Source: Spirochaetaceae bacterium (lineage in GTDB: Bacteria > Spirochaetota > Spirochaetia > SZUA-6 > Bin103). From it: 49,867 nucleotides of DNA. Made by a program: the position numbers and the translations under genes. The stretch lies in NCBI GenBank assembly GCA_028820215.1, contig JAPPKD010000059.1:1-49867 (forward strand), given 5' to 3'. This document shows positions 33,003 through 49,783 of the stretch, in pieces (position 1 is the first letter of the stretch; each line of letters begins with the position of its first letter). The notes under the pieces are model-generated. The model was not told where the DNA came from and did not search any database. It saw only the letters and a program-made list of their open reading frames with translations.

Positions 33003-34187
33003 ATGCTGACCACTGACCAGTTGCAAGCCTTGATGGCGAACCTGGAATCTGATCGGGTGGAGCGCACGACTTCCACGAACAAGACCGACAAGTTCGGCGA
33101 GGCGATCTGTGCCTTTGCGAACGACTTCCCCCTTCATCGACAACCCGGATACCTATTGGTGGGGGTGGACGACAAGGGAGACGCAGCCGGCCTCCAGGTC
33201 ACCGATGAGATTCTTCTCAAGCTCGGTGGGCTGCGTTCGAACGTCAATTTTGAGCCGCTTCCCGCTATGACGGTGCAAAGGCGATCACTCCCCGCCGGCG
33301 ATGTGGCTGTGGTAGAGGTGCTGCCAGCCGATCTACCTCCGGTGCGATATAAGGGCCGGGTGTGGATTCGCGTCGGGCCATCCCGTCGGAGCGCCAGCCA
33401 GCAGGAAGAGAGAATCCTGACTGAGAGGCGAACCGCCCATCAGACAACCTTCGACGCGCGTCCCTGTCGCGGGTGCACGATGCACGATCTTGTCTCCGAT
33501 CTGTTCCTGGTGAGCTACCTCCCTGCCGCGGTGGATCGGGATGTTCTGGATGAGAATAGACGCAGCCCAGATGAGCAAATGGCTTCTCTTCGGTTCTATG
33601 ATCTGGCGGAAGATTGTCCGACAAATGCGGGGTCGCTGCTGTTCGCGAAGGATCCGTTGCGCTGGATTCCCGGATCCTATGTTCAGTTTGTCCGCTGGGC
33701 GGGGACCACAATGGCAGCCGACGCGGTGGCCGAGAGACGATTCAGCGGCGATCTGCTCACGGTCCTGCGCGAGATCGAGTCCTTCGTATCGCTACCGGCG
33801 CAGTCGCACCCGGTGGCTGAATCGGCGTTCCGCGAGCGAGCCGAAAGCGATTACCCCCCTGTCGCGGTTCGCGAGCTACTGCTGAACGCGATAATGCACC
33901 GCTCCTATGAATCCAACGCGCCGGTACGCTTCAACTGGTTCGACGACCGGATCGAGATCCAGAATCCCGGCGGATTGTATGGCATGGCATCCCCCGAGAA
34001 CTTCCCAAGGCAGACCGACTACCGCAATCCGGTTGTCGCCTCAGCCATGGCGACGCTCGGTTATGTCAATACGTTTGGTCGCGGCGTAATCCGCACACAA
34101 GAGGCGTTGCGCAAGAACGGCAATCCCGAGGCTGGATTCACGTTCGAGCCCTCGCACGTATTGGCGACCATCTGGAGGAAGCGATGA
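33003..34187 (+). CDS. AlbA_2 (Schlafen-type) domain protein with HATPase_c_4 region
   Basis: The 394-residue product has an N-terminal AlbA_2/Schlafen-type domain (residues about 5-135: ESDRVERTTS, GEAICAFANDF, GYLLVGVDDKG, YKGRVWIRVG, then SRRSASQQEER). Its C-terminal half belongs to the HATPase_c_4 group usually found behind AlbA_2: VRELLLNAIMHRSYE, FDDRIEIQNPGGLYG and TFGRGVIRTQEALR. Such proteins are annotated as ATP-dependent regulators or helicase-related; the AlbA_2 fold is shared with Schlafen RNases. Its stop overlaps the start of the ParA gene (ATGA). Base composition is visibly less GC-rich than the flanks, which points to acquisition. Confidence 0.82.
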   Translation: MLTTDQLQALMANLESDRVERTTSTNKTDKFGEAICAFANDFPLHRQPGYLLVGVDDKGDAAGLQVTDEILLKLGGLRSNVNFEPLPAMTVQRRSLPAGDVAVVEVLPADLPPVRYKGRVWIRVGPSRRSASQQEERILTERRTAHQTTFDARPCRGCTMHDLVSDLFLVSYLPAAVDRDVLDENRRSPDEQMASLRFYDLAEDCPTNAGSLLFAKDPLRWIPGSYVQFVRWAGTTMAADAVAERRFSGDLLTVLREIESFVSLPAQSHPVAESAFRERAESDYPPVAVRELLLNAIMHRSYESNAPVRFNWFDDRIEIQNPGGLYGMASPENFPRQTDYRNPVVASAMATLGYVNTFGRGVIRTQEALRKNGNPEAGFTFEPSHVLATIWRKR

Positions 34188-35170
34188 TAACGATCGCTTT
34201 TTTCAACAACAAGGGCGGCGTTGGCAAGACCACGCTGGTGTACCACCTCGCCTGGATGTACGCCGATCTCGGCGTTTCCGTGGTCGCCGCCGATCTCGAT
34301 CCTCAGGCGAATCTGACGGCCATGTTCCTGGATGAGGATCGGCTTGAGGAGTTGTGGCCCGACGGGGACCATCCCCAGAGCATTCTTGGATCGATCTCGC
34401 CGATCCTGCGGGGGCTCGGGGACATCAAAGAGCCTCACGTGGAAGACATCAGCACCGATCTCGGCTTGGTGGTAGGCGACCTGGGATTGTCCCGCTTCGA
34501 GGCGAAGCTCTCGGCCGCATGGAACGAGTGTATGAACCGAGACGAGGCAGCCTTTCGCACGGAATCTGCATTCCATCGCACGATGCTGCAAGCCGCAGAG
34601 GTTCGGGACGCCAAGCTGATCCTGGTCGATGTCGGCCCCAATTTCGGTGCGATCAACCGTGCCGCCTTGATTGCTGCGAACTTCGTTGCCGTGCCGTTGG
34701 CTCCCGACCTGTTCTCGCTCCAGGGGCTTCGCAACCTGGGTCCTACACTCCGGGATTGGCGCGGGGAGTGGGGTGACCGGTTAGATCGCCGGCCGGCTGA
34801 CTCGGACCTGTCGCTACCGTCGGCGGAGATCCGTCCGGCCGGCTATATCGTGATGCAGCATGCTGTACGGGTGGGACGTCCCGTGCAGGCGTACCAGAAG
34901 TGGATCACCCGGATTCCCGGTGTCTACCGTACCGAAGCCCTTGGCGATGGCGCGTCGAGCGACCCATCGGCGGAGGACGAGCATTGTCTTGCTACGCTGA
35001 AGCACTACCGCAGTCTGATGCCGATGGCGCAGGAAGCGCGCAAGCCGATGTTTCAGTTGAAGGCAGCCGATGGTGCCCTGGGCGCCCACACCTACGCGGT
35101 GCAAGAGTGCTACGAGGACTTCGAGGGGCTGGCCAGGGCCATCGCTGCAAAATGCGGAGTAGAGTTGTAG
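34184..35170 (+). CDS. ParA/MinD-type ATPase
   Basis: The 328-residue protein is of the ParA (AAA_31) family. The deviant Walker A is FFNNKGGVGKTTLVYHLA (residues about 6-23), followed by VVAADLDPQANLTAMFL, and LILVDVGPNFGAINRAAL is the switch II/Walker B region. It has a longer C-terminal half than plasmid ParA, including YIVMQHAVRVGRPVQAYQKW and a final helix EDFEGLARAIAAKCG. There is no ParB gene, no parS-like repeat and no replication gene nearby, so plasmid partition is unlikely. Coupling to the AlbA_2 gene suggests a dedicated two-protein system. Confidence 0.85.
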   Translation: MITIAFFNNKGGVGKTTLVYHLAWMYADLGVSVVAADLDPQANLTAMFLDEDRLEELWPDGDHPQSILGSISPILRGLGDIKEPHVEDISTDLGLVVGDLGLSRFEAKLSAAWNECMNRDEAAFRTESAFHRTMLQAAEVRDAKLILVDVGPNFGAINRAALIAANFVAVPLAPDLFSLQGLRNLGPTLRDWRGEWGDRLDRRPADSDLSLPSAEIRPAGYIVMQHAVRVGRPVQAYQKWITRIPGVYRTEALGDGASSDPSAEDEHCLATLKHYRSLMPMAQEARKPMFQLKAADGALGAHTYAVQECYEDFEGLARAIAAKCGVEL

Positions 35171-42461: not shown

Positions 42462-43337
42462 ATGGCAGGAAAGATCGGCTGGATCGGCACCGGGGTGATG
42501 GGGCGCTCGATGTGCCTGCATCTGCGCAAGGCCGGCTACGAGGTGGCGGTCTACAACCGCTCGAAGGACAAGGCGCAGGACGTGCTCGACGCCGGCGCCG
42601 TCTGGTGCGACACGCCGGCCGGCGTGGCCGACGGCAGCGAGGCGGTGTTCAGCATCGTCGGCTACCCGCGCGACGTGGAAGAGGTGTTCCTGGGCTCGGG
42701 CGGCGTGCTTGCCGCGACCGCGAGCGGCAGCATGGTGATCGACATGACCACCTCGGAGCCGGCACTGGCCAAGCGGCTGCACGAACAGGCGGCAGAGCGC
42801 GGCGTGGCCTCCCTGGACGCTCCGGTGTCCGGCGGTGACCTGGGCGCGCGCGCCGGCACGCTGGCGATCATGGTCGGCGGCGACCGCGCCGACTACGACC
42901 GCGCCATGCCGTACTTCGAGATCATGGGCGAGAACATCGCCTACATGGGCTCGGCCGGCGCGGGACAGCACACCAAGATGAGCAACCAGATCCTGATCGC
43001 CTCCACCATGGTGGGCGTGGTCGAGTCGTTGCTGTACGGGCACAAGGCGGGGCTGGACCGCGACGAGATCATCGCCGTGATCGGCAAGGGCGCGGCGAGC
43101 TGCTTCGCCATCAACAACCTGGCCCCGCGCATCGTCAAGGGCGACTTCGAGCCCGGCTTCTACATCAAGCACTTCGTCAAGGACATGGGCATCGCCCTGG
43201 CCGAGGCGCAGGCGATGCGGCTGGCGCTGCCGGGACTGTCGCTGGCCAACCAGTTCTACACGGCGGCGATGGCCGAAGGTCTGGAGGACCGCGGCACCCA
43301 GGCGCTGTACAAGGTGCTGGAGCGCCTGAGCAGCTGA
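42462..43337 (+). CDS. 3-hydroxyisobutyrate dehydrogenase-family oxidoreductase
   Basis: The 291-residue beta-hydroxyacid dehydrogenase opens with the Rossmann motif GWIGTGVMGRSM (residues 6-17) and YNRSKDKA. The substrate loop DAPVSGGDLGA and the catalytic lysine K172 in GQHTKMSNQ are intact. It oxidises a 2-methyl- or 3-hydroxy-acid to the semialdehyde with NAD(P), or reduces a tartronate-type semialdehyde. GGAGAACGA gives a good ribosome site. It is followed 32 bases later by murB and may share its transcript. Confidence 0.9.
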   Translation: MAGKIGWIGTGVMGRSMCLHLRKAGYEVAVYNRSKDKAQDVLDAGAVWCDTPAGVADGSEAVFSIVGYPRDVEEVFLGSGGVLAATASGSMVIDMTTSEPALAKRLHEQAAERGVASLDAPVSGGDLGARAGTLAIMVGGDRADYDRAMPYFEIMGENIAYMGSAGAGQHTKMSNQILIASTMVGVVESLLYGHKAGLDRDEIIAVIGKGAASCFAINNLAPRIVKGDFEPGFYIKHFVKDMGIALAEAQAMRLALPGLSLANQFYTAAMAEGLEDRGTQALYKVLERLSS

Positions 43338-43369: not shown

Positions 43370-44419
43370 GTGCGGGTCGAGACGGACGCTCCGTTGGCCG
43401 GCCGCAACACGCTGCGCGTGGCGGCCACGGCACGCTACGTGGTGCGCGTCGGCGGCGGCCCGCCCGACCGCGTGGCGCGGGAGCTTGCCGAGCTGCTCGA
43501 CGATCCGCGCTTCGACCGCCTGCCGCGCATGGTGCTCGGCGGCGGCAGCAACGTCCTGTTCGCCGGCGACTACCCCGGCGTCGTGGTCATGCCGCGCTCG
43601 GGCGGCATCGCGGTGCAGGAGGCCTCGGAGTCGGCGATCGTGACGGCCGCCGCCGGTCACGACTGGCACCGGCTGGTGGGTTACACGGTGGCGCGCGGCT
43701 GGGGAGGACTCGAGAACCTCAGCCTGATTCCGGGGGCGGTGGGCGCGGCCCCGATCCAGAACATCGGCGCCTACGGCGCGCAATTCTCCGACGTGTTCGT
43801 CGACCTGCAGGCGGTGCCGCTGGACGGCGGCGAGCCGCGTACCATGGACGGCGCCGCGTGCGCGTTCGGCTACCGGGACAGCGTCTTCAAGCACGGCCTG
43901 CGCGACCGGATGCTGATCACGCAGGTGCGTCTGCGTCTGCGCACGCGGCCGCGGCTGAACCTGGAGTATGCCGGGTTGCGCGAGGAGCTGGCGGGTATGG
44001 GGATCGCGGCACCCTCGGTCGCCGACGTGAGCCGGGCGGTCGTCCGCCTGCGCCGCCGCAAGCTGCCCGACCCGGAGCTCGAGCCCAACGCCGGCTCGTT
44101 CTTCAAGAATCCCGTGCTCGCGCCCGAACGCTACGAACGGGCGCGGCGGCGCTGTCCGCGGCTCGCCGGCGTGCCGGCCGACGGGGGTTACAAGGTGCCG
44201 GCCGCGCAGTTGATCGAGGCTTGCGGTCTGCGCGGCCGCCGCTTCGGGCGCGCCGGCGTGGCGGAGCGCCATGCGCTGGTGCTGGTCAACCACGGTGGCG
44301 CCACCGGCGCCGAGCTGCTGGCGGCGGCGGAGGCGGTCGAGGCGGCGGTGATGGAGCGGTTCGAGGTGCGACTGGAACGCGAAGTGCGGGTGATCGGCGG
44401 CGAGGGAGGAGATGCATGA
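43370..44419 (+). CDS. murB: UDP-N-acetylenolpyruvoylglucosamine reductase
   Basis: MurB reduces UDP-GlcNAc-enolpyruvate to UDP-MurNAc, the second committed step of peptidoglycan synthesis, using FAD and NADPH. The 349-residue type I form starts at GTG 43370 with AGGAG upstream. FAD motifs are NTLRVAATARYVV, LGGGSNVLF and GWGGLENLSLIPGAVGAAPIQNIGAYG. The catalytic serine is S243 in NAGSFFKNP, and a C-terminal Glu is in LEREVRVIGG. It is unusual only in being coupled by ATGA to a glycogen debranching enzyme gene. Confidence 0.95.
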   Translation: MRVETDAPLAGRNTLRVAATARYVVRVGGGPPDRVARELAELLDDPRFDRLPRMVLGGGSNVLFAGDYPGVVVMPRSGGIAVQEASESAIVTAAAGHDWHRLVGYTVARGWGGLENLSLIPGAVGAAPIQNIGAYGAQFSDVFVDLQAVPLDGGEPRTMDGAACAFGYRDSVFKHGLRDRMLITQVRLRLRTRPRLNLEYAGLREELAGMGIAAPSVADVSRAVVRLRRRKLPDPELEPNAGSFFKNPVLAPERYERARRRCPRLAGVPADGGYKVPAAQLIEACGLRGRRFGRAGVAERHALVLVNHGGATGAELLAAAEAVEAAVMERFEVRLEREVRVIGGEGGDA

Positions 44420-46503
44420 GCTCCACGGCCACGGACACCGGCGACCCGGCACAGACCGTGAGGCTGGGCCGGGGTGAGTGCGGCCGCTTCGAGAGCGCCG
44501 TTCGCAAGGAGTGGCTGGTAACGAACGGCCTGGGCGGATTCGCCTCCGGAACCGTGGCGGGACTCAATACGCGCCGCTATCACGGCCTGCTCGTGGCGGC
44601 GCTGCGCCCACCGCAGCAGCGCACCCTCGCCGTGGCCAAGATCGATACCCGGGCCTGCTACGACGGGACTCGCCATCCCCTCTTCACCAACGAGTTCGGC
44701 GCCGGCACCGTCGACCCGCACGGCTACCGCTGCATCGAGTCGTTCCATCTCGACCACCTGATACCGGTGTGGACCTGGGCGTTGGCCGACGCGCGCCTGG
44801 AGCAGCGCATCTGGATGGACCACGGGCACAACACCGTCCGCCTGAGCTTCACGCTCGCGCGCGCCGCCGGCACCGTCACGCTGACCGCCACTCCGCTCGT
44901 CGCCTGGCGCGACTTTCACGGCCACACGCGTGGTGGTGGTGAGGTCGCCGCGGATCCGATCGCCGGCGGGGTCGCCGTGTGTGCGGACGCCGGTGCGCCG
45001 CCCTGCAGGATCGTCGCCGACCGGGGGACGTTCCGCGCGCATCCGGAGTGGTACTGGGAATTCAGACACCGCATGGAGGCCGAGCGCGGCCTGGATGCAG
45101 CCGAGGATCTGTTCTCGCCGGGATCGTTTGCCTGCACGCTTGCGCCGGGGGAGACGGTAACGTTCTCCTGCTCACTGGAGGATGTCGCCGCGGACGGCGG
45201 CCGGGAGTCGCTGGCGCGGGAACGCGCGCGGCAGGCCGGCGTGCTGCGCGCGCTCCCGGCCGAGGAACCGGCGTGGGTCCGCCACCTGGCGCTGGCCGCC
45301 GACCAGTTCGTGGTGCGGCGCTCGCTCGCGGACCGGAACGGCCCGACCGGAACGGCGGCGGGAAGCACGATCATCGCCGGCTATCCCTGGTTCGGCGATT
45401 GGGGCCGCGACACCATGATCGCCCTGCCGGGACTGACCCTGGCCACCGGCCGCGCCGCGATTGCGGCCGACATTCTGCGCACCTTTCGGCGCTACCTCGA
45501 CCGGGGCATGCTCCCCAACCGGTTTCCCGACGAAGTCGATCCCGGCGCGGCGGCGGAGTACAACACCGTGGACGCCACACTCTGGTACTTCCATGCCGTT
45601 TACCAGTACCTGCAGCACACCGCCGACCTGGCGCTCATCGAAGAGCTGTTTCCCTCGCTGGCACAGATCGTCGACCGGCACCGGCGGGGGACGCGCCACG
45701 CCATTCGCGTGGACGCGGACGACGGCCTGCTGTACGCCGGCGAGCCGGGAGTCCAACTCACCTGGATGGACGCCAGGGTAGGCGACTGGGTGGTCACGCC
45801 GCGCATCGGCAAGCCGGTCGAGGTCAACGCCCTGTGGCACAACGCCCTGCGCGTCATGGCCGACCTGGCCGATCGGCTGGGCGCGACGGAAGACGGATCG
45901 CGTTACCGCGCCGCGGCCGCGCAGGCCGCAGACAACTTCCGGCGGCGGTTCTGGTACGCTGCCGGCGGCTACCTCCACGACGTGATCGACGGCCCGGAGG
46001 GCGAGCCCGCGGCCGACGGCCGCCGTTGCGACCATCGGCTCCGGCCCAATCAGATCTTCGCGGTGTCATTGCCGTTCCCCCTGCTGGAGGAGGCCCAGGC
46101 CAAATCCGTGGTCGACGTGTGCGCCCGCCGGCTCTGGGCGTCGTACGGCCTGCGCAGCCTGGCGCCTGACGATCCGGACTACGTCGGCCGCTACGGCGGC
46201 GGTCCGGCCGAGCGCGACGCGGGTTACCATCGCGGCACCGTGTGGGGCTGGCTGCTCGGGCCCTTCGCCACCGCCCACTTCCGCGTGTACCGGGACCCGG
46301 CGGCGACCCGCGGGATCCTCGCTCCGCTGAAGGATCACCTGGCCGACGCCGGCCTGGGATCCGTCAGCGAAATCTTCGACGGCGACCCGCCGCACCTTCC
46401 GGGCGGCTGTGTCGCGCAGGCATGGAGCGTGGCCGAGGTGCTGTGCGCCTGGAGACAACTCCCGCCGGCCGGACCGGCACCCGCGGTGCGGGCAGCGACG
46501 TGA
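44416..46503 (+). CDS. Glycogen debranching enzyme (amylo-alpha-1,6-glucosidase type)
   Basis: The start is ATG 44416, overlapping the murB stop; the frame is open upstream inside murB only by chance. The 695-residue product has the N-terminal domain of bacterial/archaeal debranching enzymes (EWLVTNGLGGFASGTVAGLNTRRYHGLLVAA) and an (alpha/alpha)6 catalytic domain with IAGYPWFGDWGRDTMIALPGL, where the Asp is the likely acid, then NTVDATLWYF, TWMDARVGDWVVTPR and HRGTVWGWLLGPFA. It removes alpha-1,6 branches from glycogen or maltodextrin in the cytosol. It is translationally coupled to the flavoprotein gene that follows, an unexpected partner. Confidence 0.9.
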   Translation: MSSTATDTGDPAQTVRLGRGECGRFESAVRKEWLVTNGLGGFASGTVAGLNTRRYHGLLVAALRPPQQRTLAVAKIDTRACYDGTRHPLFTNEFGAGTVDPHGYRCIESFHLDHLIPVWTWALADARLEQRIWMDHGHNTVRLSFTLARAAGTVTLTATPLVAWRDFHGHTRGGGEVAADPIAGGVAVCADAGAPPCRIVADRGTFRAHPEWYWEFRHRMEAERGLDAAEDLFSPGSFACTLAPGETVTFSCSLEDVAADGGRESLARERARQAGVLRALPAEEPAWVRHLALAADQFVVRRSLADRNGPTGTAAGSTIIAGYPWFGDWGRDTMIALPGLTLATGRAAIAADILRTFRRYLDRGMLPNRFPDEVDPGAAAEYNTVDATLWYFHAVYQYLQHTADLALIEELFPSLAQIVDRHRRGTRHAIRVDADDGLLYAGEPGVQLTWMDARVGDWVVTPRIGKPVEVNALWHNALRVMADLADRLGATEDGSRYRAAAAQAADNFRRRFWYAAGGYLHDVIDGPEGEPAADGRRCDHRLRPNQIFAVSLPFPLLEEAQAKSVVDVCARRLWASYGLRSLAPDDPDYVGRYGGGPAERDAGYHRGTVWGWLLGPFATAHFRVYRDPAATRGILAPLKDHLADAGLGSVSEIFDGDPPHLPGGCVAQAWSVAEVLCAWRQLPPAGPAPAVRAAT

Positions 46504-48221
46504 CGCGCCGTTTCATCGCCGGCCTGCTGATCGGCCTGGCCGTCGCCGGGTTGGAAGTGATTCTGACGACACTCCCGGCCGCGGCGCCCGGCGGGATTGT
46601 CAGGAACGCCGGAGGAGCGATTCGGCTGCTCGCGGCAGGTGCGTCGCTGGGCGTCGCCTTCGCGCTGCTGTTCCGTCCCACGCCCGGGAGTCACCCGGAA
46701 AACGTCATGGGCGGTGTCGTGATGGGGGTGGTGACGTGGGTGGTCTGTGCCCTCAGCCTCTTCCCCGTCCTCGACGCGGGCGCCCCGATGTGGCACGCGG
46801 ACACGGCGGCCCGCATCGTCCCGGAACTGGTCGCCTACGTGCTGCACGGCAGTCTGACCGGGTTCCTCTACGGCTTGGCATGCGAACGCCTGCGTCTGGC
46901 GCCGGCCGAAATGCCCTCGCCGGAACCGGCCGTGAAGACGAACGTCGTCATCGTCGGCGGTGGCTACGCCGGCGTAAGCGCAGCCACGTCGCTCGACAAG
47001 GCGTTCGCCGACGACCCTCGCGTGGACGTATGGCTGGTCAGCAAGACCAACTATCTCGTGCATACGCCCATGCTGTCGGAGGTGTCGTCGAGCGCCGTCA
47101 ATCCGCAGAACATCAGTCCGCCCTTGCGCTCCTTCTTTCGACGGGTGCACGTGGTACAGGGCGAGGTCGCGAGCATCGATTGGGCACGCGGTCGCGTCGA
47201 TCTGAGTCCCGGCGTACGTTCGCCGGACTCCAGCCTGGCATTCGACCATCTTTTGATCACGACCGGATGCGTTCCCAGCTTCTTCGGCAACCGGGACATC
47301 GAGGCCAACACGCTCACCTTCAAGTCGTTGCAGGACAGCGTTCGACTCCGCAATCAGATCATCGACCGGTTCGAGCGGGCCGACTTCGAGCAGGAGCCTG
47401 GGACGAAGCGCCGGTTGCTGACGTTCGTGGTCGTCGGGGGCGGCTTTGCCGGCGTCGAGCTGATCGGCGGCCTCAACGACTTCGGCCGGGGCATGTTGCC
47501 CTACTATCCCAACATCGCGCCGGACGACGTGCGGTTCGTACTGGTCCATCCCCGCGACGTCATATTGCCCGAGTTGAGTGAGTCGCTGGGGCGGTTCGCG
47601 CAGGAAAAGATGGCCGCGCGAGGCGTCGAGTTCATCGCCAACACCAGGGTCACCGGAGCCGCGCCGGGGATGATCCTCATCGGCGACGAGAGACTCGCTG
47701 CCGACACCGTGGTGTGGACGGCGGGCAATCAGCCAAATCCGATCGTGCATGCACTCGGCGTCGAGCTGACGCGGCGGGGTCAGATTCCTGTCTCGTCCGA
47801 CCTGCGATCGGTCGAAAACCCGGCCTTGTGGGCGGCGGGCGACTGTGCCCGGATACCCATCCCCAACGACCCGGGCTCCTTCTACCCGCCGACGGCCCAG
47901 CACGCCTTTCGCGAAGGGAGGCTCGCGGGCCACAACGTAGCGGCCGCGATCCGTGGCACGCCGCTGCAACCGTTCGACTTCAAGACACTGGGCAGCTTGG
48001 CCGCGCTGGGGCACCAGTTGGCGGTGGCTGAAGTGCTGGGTCGTCGCTTCTCCGGGTTTCTGGCATGGATCATGTGGCGGGCCATCTACCTGTCGAAGCT
48101 CCCCAACCTGGAGAAGCGATTGCGCGTCCTGCTGGACTGGGTTCTGGATGTGTTCTTCCCGCCTGACATCGTGCAGACCATCAGCTTCGACGCCGAATCG
48201 GAGCGGGACGTGCGGTCATGA
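46500..48221 (+). CDS. NDH-2-like NAD(P)/FAD oxidoreductase with N-terminal membrane module
   Basis: The start is GTG 46500, overlapping the debranching-enzyme stop (GTGA). The product has 573 residues. The first roughly 140 form a membrane module with about four spans (RRFIAGLLIGLAVAGLEVIL, LAAGASLGVAFALLF, NVMGGVVMGVVTWVVCALSLFPV, ELVAYVLHGSLTGFLYGLA). From about 145 on it is a type II NADH dehydrogenase: NVVIVGGGYAGVSAATSL for FAD, LLTFVVVGGGFAGVELIGGL for NAD(P), LWAAGDCARIP and PTAQHAFREG. NDH-2 enzymes pass electrons to quinone and are normally monotopic, so the N-terminal module is an addition. The module resembles the repeats of the next protein. Confidence 0.85.
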   Translation: MTRRFIAGLLIGLAVAGLEVILTTLPAAAPGGIVRNAGGAIRLLAAGASLGVAFALLFRPTPGSHPENVMGGVVMGVVTWVVCALSLFPVLDAGAPMWHADTAARIVPELVAYVLHGSLTGFLYGLACERLRLAPAEMPSPEPAVKTNVVIVGGGYAGVSAATSLDKAFADDPRVDVWLVSKTNYLVHTPMLSEVSSSAVNPQNISPPLRSFFRRVHVVQGEVASIDWARGRVDLSPGVRSPDSSLAFDHLLITTGCVPSFFGNRDIEANTLTFKSLQDSVRLRNQIIDRFERADFEQEPGTKRRLLTFVVVGGGFAGVELIGGLNDFGRGMLPYYPNIAPDDVRFVLVHPRDVILPELSESLGRFAQEKMAARGVEFIANTRVTGAAPGMILIGDERLAADTVVWTAGNQPNPIVHALGVELTRRGQIPVSSDLRSVENPALWAAGDCARIPIPNDPGSFYPPTAQHAFREGRLAGHNVAAAIRGTPLQPFDFKTLGSLAALGHQLAVAEVLGRRFSGFLAWIMWRAIYLSKLPNLEKRLRVLLDWVLDVFFPPDIVQTISFDAESERDVRS

Positions 48222-49651
48222 CGCGCAATCGTCTTCTGGCCGGGGCGATCGCCGGGGTGTTGGGCGGCAGCGTGTCCGGGCTGTTGGCAGTGCCTGCCAT
48301 CCCCTGGCCGGTGCACCTGCCGATGAGCGGCGTCCTGGGCGTGCTCTTCGGTCTCGGGTTCGGCGTGCGGGTGCGGACCGCCGGATCGTCGCTCATGTGG
48401 GGTCAGGCGTACGGCATCCTGTGGTGGCTGGTGGGTCCGCTGACGCTGTTACCGCTCGTGGATGGACGCGGTCTGCAGTGGACGGTGCCGGCGATACAGG
48501 ACGGTTTTCCGCACCTCCTGGCGCACATGGTCGGCTTCGGGGCGGTGCTGGGCCTGGCGATGCACGGCCTCGGCCGTCTGTTCCCGTTCGTTACCGCCGC
48601 CTGCAAGCCGCCGGCGGAGCCGAGAGTTCCCGAGCTGGTGCCGCCGCTGGTGCAGGCGCTCGTCGTGGGCGGAGTGGGCGGACTGCTCGGCGCATGGGTG
48701 TTCCTGTGGGGCATCGAGACAGCGGGTTTCTTTCCCGTCGTCGCCGGCATGGTCGGCATGGGCTCGCCCACGGCGGGCGGCCTGTTGCACTATCTCATCG
48801 GCTTGGTCATCGCCATGACCTTCGCCCTCCTGTTCCACCGCAACGTAGGCGGCGCCGGCTCCGCTCTCATCTGGGGCATGGGTTACGGCGTGCTCTGGTG
48901 GATTCTCGGTCCGCTGACGCTGCTTCCGCTGTTCACCCACAGTCCGGTTCAGTGGACCGTGGAAGCGGCGCGGGCGAACTACTCGTCGCTGGTGGCGCAC
49001 CTCCTCTATGGAGCTGTCGTCGGTTGGGTCTATGCCGTCGTCAATCGCCTGTGGGTGATCCTGTTCGTGGACTCGGATCCGCTCAGCCGCACGCGTGAAG
49101 GTGCCGGCACGCGCAGCGTCCGCGGCCTCCTGATGGGGCAGGCCGGTGGCATTCTGGGCGGGATCCTCTTCACCGTCGTGATGTACGGCGTCGGCGCGCT
49201 GCCCAACGTCGCCAGCTTGGTCGGTTCGCGCTCGCCCCTTGTCGGCGTTCTGGTGCACTTTGCCATCTCGATCCTCATCGGCAGCAGCTTCGGCTTGCTG
49301 TTCCAGCGCCATGCACACAGCCCCGGAGCGGGGATGAGCTGGGGACTGTCGTATGGCGTGCTGTGGTGGCTGCTCGGGGCGCTGACGCTGTTCCCGGCAC
49401 TGTTGCGGCAACCGGTCGACTGGTCACTGGCGGCGGCGTCGGCCAATTACGCCTCGCTGATCGGGCATCTGTTCTACGGCGTGGGCCTGGGGCTGCTGCT
49501 CCAGCACCTGGTCTCCCGCTACGACTCGGCATGGCAACCGGGCCGACAGCGCGATACCGGTACGCCGGAAGCGCTGTGGGCCGGCACCGTGCTGGTGACG
49601 GTCATCCTGCCGCTCGTACTACACACGGCCGCCGCCGCGCCAAGACCTTGA
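48218..49651 (+). CDS. Polytopic membrane protein with three similar modules
   Basis: The start overlaps the flavoprotein stop (ATGA). The 477-residue product is almost entirely membrane-embedded. It contains roughly three copies of a 140-residue module: a Gly-rich span, a loop, a span of the type GSSFGLLF or AMTFALLF, then GxxYGxLWWxLGxLTLxP, a Pro/Trp-rich loop (QWTV, DWSL) and a final HLxYGxxxG span. The motif YGILWWLVGPLTLLP occurs near residue 65, with YGVLWWILGPLTLLP and YGVLWWLLGALTLFP in the later copies. The flavoprotein's N-terminus matches one such module loosely. I know no named family for it. A membrane partner or electron-transfer subunit of the flavoprotein is the obvious guess. 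Confidence 0.75.
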   Translation: MTRNRLLAGAIAGVLGGSVSGLLAVPAIPWPVHLPMSGVLGVLFGLGFGVRVRTAGSSLMWGQAYGILWWLVGPLTLLPLVDGRGLQWTVPAIQDGFPHLLAHMVGFGAVLGLAMHGLGRLFPFVTAACKPPAEPRVPELVPPLVQALVVGGVGGLLGAWVFLWGIETAGFFPVVAGMVGMGSPTAGGLLHYLIGLVIAMTFALLFHRNVGGAGSALIWGMGYGVLWWILGPLTLLPLFTHSPVQWTVEAARANYSSLVAHLLYGAVVGWVYAVVNRLWVILFVDSDPLSRTREGAGTRSVRGLLMGQAGGILGGILFTVVMYGVGALPNVASLVGSRSPLVGVLVHFAISILIGSSFGLLFQRHAHSPGAGMSWGLSYGVLWWLLGALTLFPALLRQPVDWSLAAASANYASLIGHLFYGVGLGLLLQHLVSRYDSAWQPGRQRDTGTPEALWAGTVLVTVILPLVLHTAAAAPRP

Positions 49652-49770: not shown

Positions 49771-49783
49771 GGGGGGGGGGGGG
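49771..49783 (+). repeat. Run of 13 G
   Basis: A homopolymer of thirteen G follows ACACCC, by far the longest single-base run I noticed in the window. It is a candidate slippage site or a place where read or assembly length may be wrong. Confidence 0.85.

Follow-up and report, generated by a model that had tools for sequence, protein, structure and literature searches.

A conserved gene pair encoding an NDH-2-type flavoprotein with a fused four-helix module and its three-module membrane partner, a candidate integral-membrane NAD(P)H:quinone oxidoreductase

The locus described here raises the question of why an NADH dehydrogenase of the NDH-2 type should carry an integral membrane module, and why the same module should recur in the protein encoded next to it. 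The two genes lie in a 49,867-nucleotide stretch of the Spirochaetaceae bacterium assembly GCA_028820215.1 (contig JAPPKD010000059.1), referred to as the window: P1 encodes an NDH-2-type flavoprotein with a fused N-terminal module (module X) and P2 encodes a membrane protein of three modules (A, B and C). Textbooks present NDH-2 as the NADH dehydrogenase that has one subunit and does not pump ions; it has been proposed as a drug target, and is described in the abstract of PMC5220320 as a single-subunit monotopic membrane protein with “just a flavin cofactor.” An earlier reading of the window, made without database searches (the sequence-only reading), suggested that the module had been duplicated into a separate protein and fused to an NADH dehydrogenase, and that the product might be an electron-transfer or ion-coupled complex. 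Our analysis identifies P1 and P2 as a conserved system. The explanation we favor, with a little less than even confidence, is a two-subunit integral-membrane NAD(P)H:quinone oxidoreductase in which modules bearing two histidines most likely hold haem b or another redox ligand and electrons pass from quinol to the outer face.

Module X is homologous to each of the three modules of P2. BLASTP without composition adjustment matched P1 residues 1-145 to each P2 module, namely B (30% over 90 amino acids, E 1.4e-12), C (E 8e-10) and A (E 1e-8). In 1000 shuffles that kept the hydrophobic/polar pattern, none reached the real score (z 7.9 for A, 11.7 for B and 9.3 for C). Profile-profile comparison of X, built from 43 sequences, gave E values of 3e-28 with A, 7e-27 with B and 4e-29 with C, with alignments of 120-130 columns and probabilities of 99.7-99.8%. 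When profiles were reversed as controls, X gave E 1.6e-5 (46 columns, 79%) and E 0.015 and 0.011 (57 columns, 3-4%), and X against its own reversal gave E 5e-6 over 117 columns with a probability of 86%. Thus the modules align beyond composition, by profiles as well as by pattern-keeping shuffles, and the common module proposed in the sequence-only reading is upheld. The order of elements in the AlphaFold2 models is also identical in X, A, B and C: transmembrane helices (TM) 1, 2 and 3, a short helix, and TM4. The X model is partly of low confidence (pLDDT below 50 at residues 28-32); the P2 model has a pLDDT of 91.7 and a pTM of 0.92. Loop charges fit an arrangement with both the N-terminus and the NDH-2 domain on the cytoplasmic side.

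Two details of the earlier description had to be revised. The layout of about three modules in P2 is correct, with a thirteenth helix added after module C (Table 1). The final motif, given as HGxxxGxxYG, occurs only in X; B and C have HLxYGxxxG, which is out of register with it, its histidine aligning with Tyr113 of X and not with His116. As to origin, the fusion to NDH-2 stands, whereas the duplication does not follow from the tree, which indicates old paralogues and gives no direction. In this approximate tree the X modules cluster (43 of 43 within a 44-tip group, support 0.92), so X is an old paralogue rather than a recent copy. The C modules (130 of 130, support 0.998) and the single-module relatives used (42 of 42, support 0.957) also group together; neither A nor B forms one clean group.

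The two genes overlap by ATGA at 48218-48221, as had been noted from the sequence, and their association extends well beyond the window. A scan for the P2 family in a collection of one genome per species gave 54 loci, of which L001-L050 hold a multi-module P2; many loci are closely related, so counts over them are not counts of independent events. An NDH-2 gene lies directly upstream of P2 in 46 of the 50 multi-module loci, always on the same strand (46 of 46), with an in-frame NTGA overlap at the junction in 30 of the 46. The partner is therefore constant in other genomes, as the sequence-only reading required of a true pair. Three of the remaining four loci (L017, L035 and L044) start at a contig edge, and in one (L003) no NDH-2 lies upstream. 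The sources include Chloroflexi/Anaerolineae, actinomycetes, the haloarchaeon Natronorubrum, Planctomycetota, Armatimonadetes, a deltaproteobacterium, Eremiobacterota and Acetothermia. In a Chloroflexota sample, 21 multi-module loci were found in 20 of 301 genomes (five of the 20 also in the one-per-species scan), with NDH-2 at 21 of 21. In an Actinomycetota sample, 10 such loci were found in 9 of 296 genomes (one of the nine also in that scan), with NDH-2 at nine and the tenth at a contig edge. Eight further Chloroflexota and six further Actinomycetota genomes in these samples had single-module matches only.

By simple hydropathy, 35 of the 46 upstream NDH-2s have four hydrophobic stretches in the N-terminal extension, six have three, and five have fewer (L010, L014, L021, L028 and L036, some with cut N-termini). 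For the X profile the extension was readable in 42 of the 46, giving 43 sequences with the window; L014, L021, L028 and L036 were omitted because their N-termini are cut, by the contig or in processing. The P2 sets omit L011 and L044 (added set) and L048 and L050 (P2 in two frames). The last two are Streptomyces strains in which P2 appears to be split (L048, 8079-9424; L050, 4413-5847), through either sequencing error or decay. A reverse search with X also pointed to a possible second copy, close to the edge of a contig (G544:C9).

By sequence criteria, P1 is an NDH-2 that departs from the single-subunit monotopic description. It matches Pyr_redox_2 (E 2.4e-43) and NDH2_C (43.9 bits against a cut-off of 27.7), and its catalytic part resembles NDH-2 enzymes of solved structure in sequence as well as fold. 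Like the enzymes of Caldalkalibacillus thermarum (4nwz) and mycobacteria (9mqy), P1 has the two-dinucleotide-binding fold, the FAD and NAD(P)H motifs, WxxG, AQxAxR and NDH2_C. The GxGxxG-like motifs are conserved at G153, G155, G158, G313 and G315 (41 of 41 sequences each) and at G318 (40 of 41), and W406 and G409 of WxxG, in the second Rossmann domain, are conserved in 41 of 41. In the AQHAFR motif, A466 and R471 are found in 41 of 41 and Q467 and A469 in 40 of 41; R471 is present in all 47 NDH-2s of these loci. Variants AQxAxQ, AQxAxR and APxAxQ of this quinone-site motif are given in a passage of PMC5299459. Three features set P1 apart from known NDH-2s: its four-TM N-terminal module (four hydrophobic helices within residues 1-130, at odds with a monotopic protein), its constant three-module partner, and a histidine in place of an acidic residue.

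This histidine, His350, is present in 47 of 47 NDH-2s of these loci, window included. The position is glutamate in nine of nine other NDH-2s (NDH2_C matches, from seven genomes) of ten host genomes, and glutamate or aspartate in the solved NDH-2s that were aligned. Two of the nine (L134 and L135) also have long N-terminal frames. In Rossmann folds, the acidic residue that closes the second strand usually selects NADH, and its loss permits NADPH. Since the usual acidic residue is lost, P1 is predicted to use NADPH. NADHdh, a complex I subunit family, is matched in 10 of 10 host genomes, and 7 of 10 have at least one further NDH-2; thus the fused enzyme is usually an extra NDH-2.

The modules can carry a pair of histidines, one on TM2 and one on TM4. 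In module C these are His347 and His417, located 7 and 6 residues, respectively, inside the predicted outer helix ends. Both are among the invariant residues of 97 P2 proteins; the others are Tyr420, also in module C, and glycines and tryptophans. When nearly invariant positions are included, E294 and R434 are the sole charged residues, each within or beside a predicted cytoplasmic linker; apart from the histidine pair, no membrane cysteine or acidic residue stands among these positions. Both histidines are present in 128 of 130 C modules (neither in 2), in 89 of 130 B modules (neither in 39, half a pair in 2) and in 7 of 43 X modules (neither in 34, half in 2). Module A has both in 35 of 128, neither in 43, TM2 only in 43 and TM4 only in 7. 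Stand-alone single-module relatives have both in 131 of 132. The modules are short and were aligned with MAFFT, on which these counts depend, and relatedness inflates them; the TM2 column is a gap in 22 of the 130 B modules, which were scored as lacking histidine (one of the 22 has a histidine within six residues), and a one-residue insertion follows the TM4 position in 87 of 128 A modules. Except in module A, where the pattern is looser, the two histidines are mostly retained or lost as a pair, and their positions are linked in evolution. In a mean-field coupling analysis, H347-H417 ranks 13 of 9180 pairs; F318, Y379, G387 and Y420 are coupled with them as well.

All four modules could be read in 40 systems, of which 32 have exactly two full pairs, five have one and three have three. 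The combinations are A+C (18), B+C (9), X+C (5), C only (3), X+A+C (2), A only (2) and A+B+C (1, the window). In module A of the window, there is a one-residue insertion after H103 and before the next motif. If insertion-bearing pairs are excluded, the window becomes B+C and exactly two pairs are found in 33 of the 40 systems. Among 128 P2 proteins, exclusion gives B+C in 87, A+C in 28, C only in 11 and A only in 2, so that the A and B pairs never occur together; inclusion gives B+C 82, A+C 28, A+B+C 5, C 11 and A 2. Different lineages keep the same number of pairs in different modules. An ancestor with more pairs, some of them since lost, may account for this two-pair pattern.

Table 1. Position of the P1-P2 gene pair and its features in the window.
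Feature	Coordinates	Strand	Remarks
P1, module-fused NDH-2, flavoprotein	46500..48221	+	573 aa, GTG start
Fused module X, P1 residues 1-130	46500..46889	+	AlphaFold2 helices; homology to A, B and C; His pair absent in P1
Helices of X			AlphaFold2: TM1 2-24, TM2 37-57, TM3 65-91, short helix 100-105, TM4 107-130
P1 His350	47547..47549	+	End of second strand of NAD(P)H-binding fold
P1 quinone-site motif AQHAFR, residues 466-471	47895..47912	+	AQxAxR variant
P1 NDH2_C membrane-interacting domain, residues 497-553	47988..48158	+	Pfam PF22366, E 2.8e-11
P2, three-module membrane protein, partner	48218..49651	+	477 aa, ATG start, 13 predicted TM helices
P2 module A, residues 2-121	48221..48580	+	H33/H103 align with His pair, equivalence doubtful
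P2 module B, residues 143-285	48644..49072	+	His pair H191/H261
P2 module C, residues 296-436	49103..49525	+	His pair H347/H417
P2 thirteenth TM helix, residues 450-473	49565..49636	+	AlphaFold2

The arrangement of these residues may point to a bound ligand. In the four-helix haem bundles of cytochrome b, histidines lie on the second and fourth helices and glycines on the first and third. The modules likewise have histidines on TM2 and TM4 and conserved glycines on TM1 and TM3. Unlike cytochrome b, each helix of a module carries one histidine, hence there is one site per module. A relation to cytochrome b-type proteins was not recovered by sequence match among solved structures or by a credible fold match.

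Genes near the pair also point, circumstantially, to electron transfer, the part of the earlier suggestion that is retained. Gene calls at the loci were made with a custom codon score, and the Pfam scan covered 122 of 148 neighbor open reading frames (26 omitted). The commonest family among the 122 was DM13 (PF10517, “Electron transfer DM13”; 9 members), a domain predicted, in a passage of PMC4140639, to act in redox or electron transfer. DM13 genes lie 2-87 bases upstream of P1 in L013, L018, L022, L023 and L047, adjoin P2 on the opposite strand in L026, L027 and L050, and lie 2-6 kb away in L045 and L048. The first five, four of which are closely related, are among the seven loci in which X has a histidine pair. 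By eye, the 10 DM13 proteins share one cysteine and start with an N-terminal hydrophobic stretch. In 20 genomes tested, 19 had at least one DM13 match and none had more than two; because the domain is rare per genome, its repeated adjacency in three lineages is unlikely to be due to chance, a point that was judged and not computed. In addition, molybdopterin oxidoreductases lie near the pair in L012, L030, L046 and L048, a DsbD-redoxin protein follows P2 in L016, a glucose dehydrogenase precedes P1 in L012 and a 6-phosphogluconate dehydrogenase-like protein follows P2 in L007. In L003 (932-5691), P2 is followed by genes for three enzymes that are usual sources of NADPH: 6-phosphogluconate dehydrogenase, glucose-6-phosphate dehydrogenase and 6-phosphogluconolactonase.

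From these results we infer complex formation, haem binding, NADPH use and outward electron flow, and the following mechanism can be proposed. P1 would be an NDH-2 tethered by its own four-TM module of the DUF1440 type, and P2 would add three such modules and one helix, giving a complex of four homologous modules. On the cytoplasmic side, the FAD of P1 would take hydride from NAD(P)H, with NADPH as the predicted donor, and quinone would receive the electrons at the AQxAxR site, beside the assembled modules or inside their assembly. In most systems two modules would bear a bis-histidine site, formed by the TM2 and TM4 histidines with the conserved glycines of TM1 and TM3 and lying in the membrane's outer third. 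These sites would most likely bind haem b or a similar redox ligand and pass electrons from quinol toward the outer face, from where, in some lineages, they could go on to outer DM13 or molybdopterin proteins. The first half of this mechanism, from NAD(P)H through FAD to quinone, follows known NDH-2 chemistry; the second half is suggested by the histidine pairs and the neighboring genes. If correct, the pair would be a distinct respiratory entry point, a widespread form of NDH-2 with a membrane partner, a changed coenzyme residue and paired-histidine sites. It also yields concrete predictions, namely NADPH use, haem and a complex.

One of the closest known systems is the Ndh2 of flavin-based extracellular electron transfer, which has a C-terminal membrane domain. 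In Listeria and lactobacilli, according to passages of PMC10608574 and PMC8837199, this NDH-2 sends electrons outward via quinone to extracytoplasmic carriers. Unlike P1, it has other partners (EetA/EetB and PplA); the comparison is one of described features. A search of the open literature, of partial coverage and with a 2016 survey of NDH-2 diversity falling outside it, gave no paper on the P1-P2 pair among those listed.

A broader proposal concerns the module itself. P2 scores above the cut-off of DUF1440 (PF07274; 42.5 bits against 34.7), as does P2 of L003 (44.1 bits), with haloarchaeal P2 of L009 below it (31.7), and P2 scores below the cut-off of DUF6789 (PF20587; 21.6 against 27.1). 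Escherichia coli YagU, a DUF1440 protein, has histidines at both aligned positions (H106 and H172). Unlike P1-P2, YagU has no attached enzyme, and its alignment is weak: hhalign gave a probability of 36% with the single-module profile and a value that is not credible (below 1%) with module C. We consider it possible, though with rather more doubt than the oxidoreductase itself, that the DUF1440/YagU-type module is an unrecognized fold for bis-histidine haem b or a redox ligand, and that the pair is a modular NADPH-to-outside conduit in which two haem sites are needed and are placed in B+C, A+C or X+C by lineage. The reading of the pair as an oxidoreductase would, if true, provide a functional lead for the DUF1440/YagU family. 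In the E. coli MG1655 region 299000-306000 (L126), yagU, annotated DUF1440, adjoins paoABC, encoding an aldehyde dehydrogenase with a molybdenum cofactor. Near single-module relatives, or in stretches around them, there are DUF3179 genes (L111, L113, L118 and L120), and DsbD_TM-like genes occur near others (L112, L116 and L122, two of the three below the Pfam cut-off); these are a possible lead to the function of the single-module relatives.

Several observations weigh against the proposed oxidoreductase with outward electron flow. First, sequence comparison with solved structures gave no relative of P2, and fold comparison gave no credible one. Secondly, module A often has the TM2 histidine alone (43 of 128), and 5 of the 40 systems have only one full pair. 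Third, all histidine sites lie at equal membrane depth, so haems at these sites alone cannot span the membrane. Fourth, the pairing of the genes is not without exceptions: in L003, from a TA06 metagenome-assembled genome, P2 lacks an upstream NDH-2 and follows a gene that is acetyltransferase-like by eye, and the reverse search with X gave an X-like NDH-2 (L110, 3454-5586, minus strand) with no P2 within the 8 kb examined. In the L110 extension, the TM3-TM4 half of the module is recognizable in frame and the TM1-TM2 half is unreadable in frame. Lastly, DM13 is found at 10 of the 54 loci and not near the pair of the window, which has no such redox neighbors on its visible side; the window ends 216 bases past P2.

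The main rival is a plain scaffold, in which the modules anchor the enzyme in the membrane and deliver quinone, the histidine pairs bind quinone or are structural, and no electrons pass through the modules. Known NDH-2s function with FAD and quinone alone. The catalytic and quinone motifs of P1 are intact, X itself lacks the histidine pair in 34 of 43 sequences, and the phrase quoted above from PMC5220320 agrees with a flavin-only enzyme. However, the paired histidines are evolutionarily linked, and the stand-alone single-module relatives retain them almost without exception; 12 single-module relatives were seen in loci that have no NDH-2 in the stretch examined. Because the pairs are kept in relatives without a nearby NDH-2, a pure NDH-2 scaffold fails to explain them, and we regard it as somewhat unlikely.

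An improbable alternative is that the modules, as a DUF1440/YagU-type sensor or transporter, serve to bind or carry a metal ion or respond to acid or redox state outside, with the NDH-2 reducing the metal or setting the state, for example as a ferric or cupric reductase. Paired histidines in the outer third of the membrane would suit metal binding, and E. coli yagU is reported, in a passage of PMC2270276, to respond to external acid and contribute to acid resistance; the corresponding YagU histidines are those of the weak alignment described above. Yet no metal-homeostasis family is found among the 25 commonest of 162 neighbor families, and the conserved lists hold no cysteine or acidic residue in the membrane beside the histidine pair. 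The ion-coupled complex of the sequence-only reading, a proton- or sodium-pumping NADH dehydrogenase built on NDH-2, is very improbable despite the many TM helices beside the enzyme, as the sole charged residues in the conserved lists, E294 and R434, are not mid-membrane and all ten host genomes examined have the NADHdh match.

Upstream of P1 and on the same strand lie genes for a 3-hydroxyisobutyrate-dehydrogenase-like protein (42462-43337), a MurB-like protein (43370-44419) and a glycogen debranching enzyme (about 44416-46503). The P1 start overlaps the stop of the last by GTGA (46500-46503). Since the glycogen-debranching gene overlaps both of its neighbors, P1-P2 may close one long operon. 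Downstream of P2, a run of about 13 G at 49771-49783 is a possible weak spot of sequencing or assembly. Elsewhere in the window, positions 33003-35170 encode a protein with Schlafen/AlbA_2 and RecG-C-type domains, adjoining a gene for a ParA/MinD-like ATPase.

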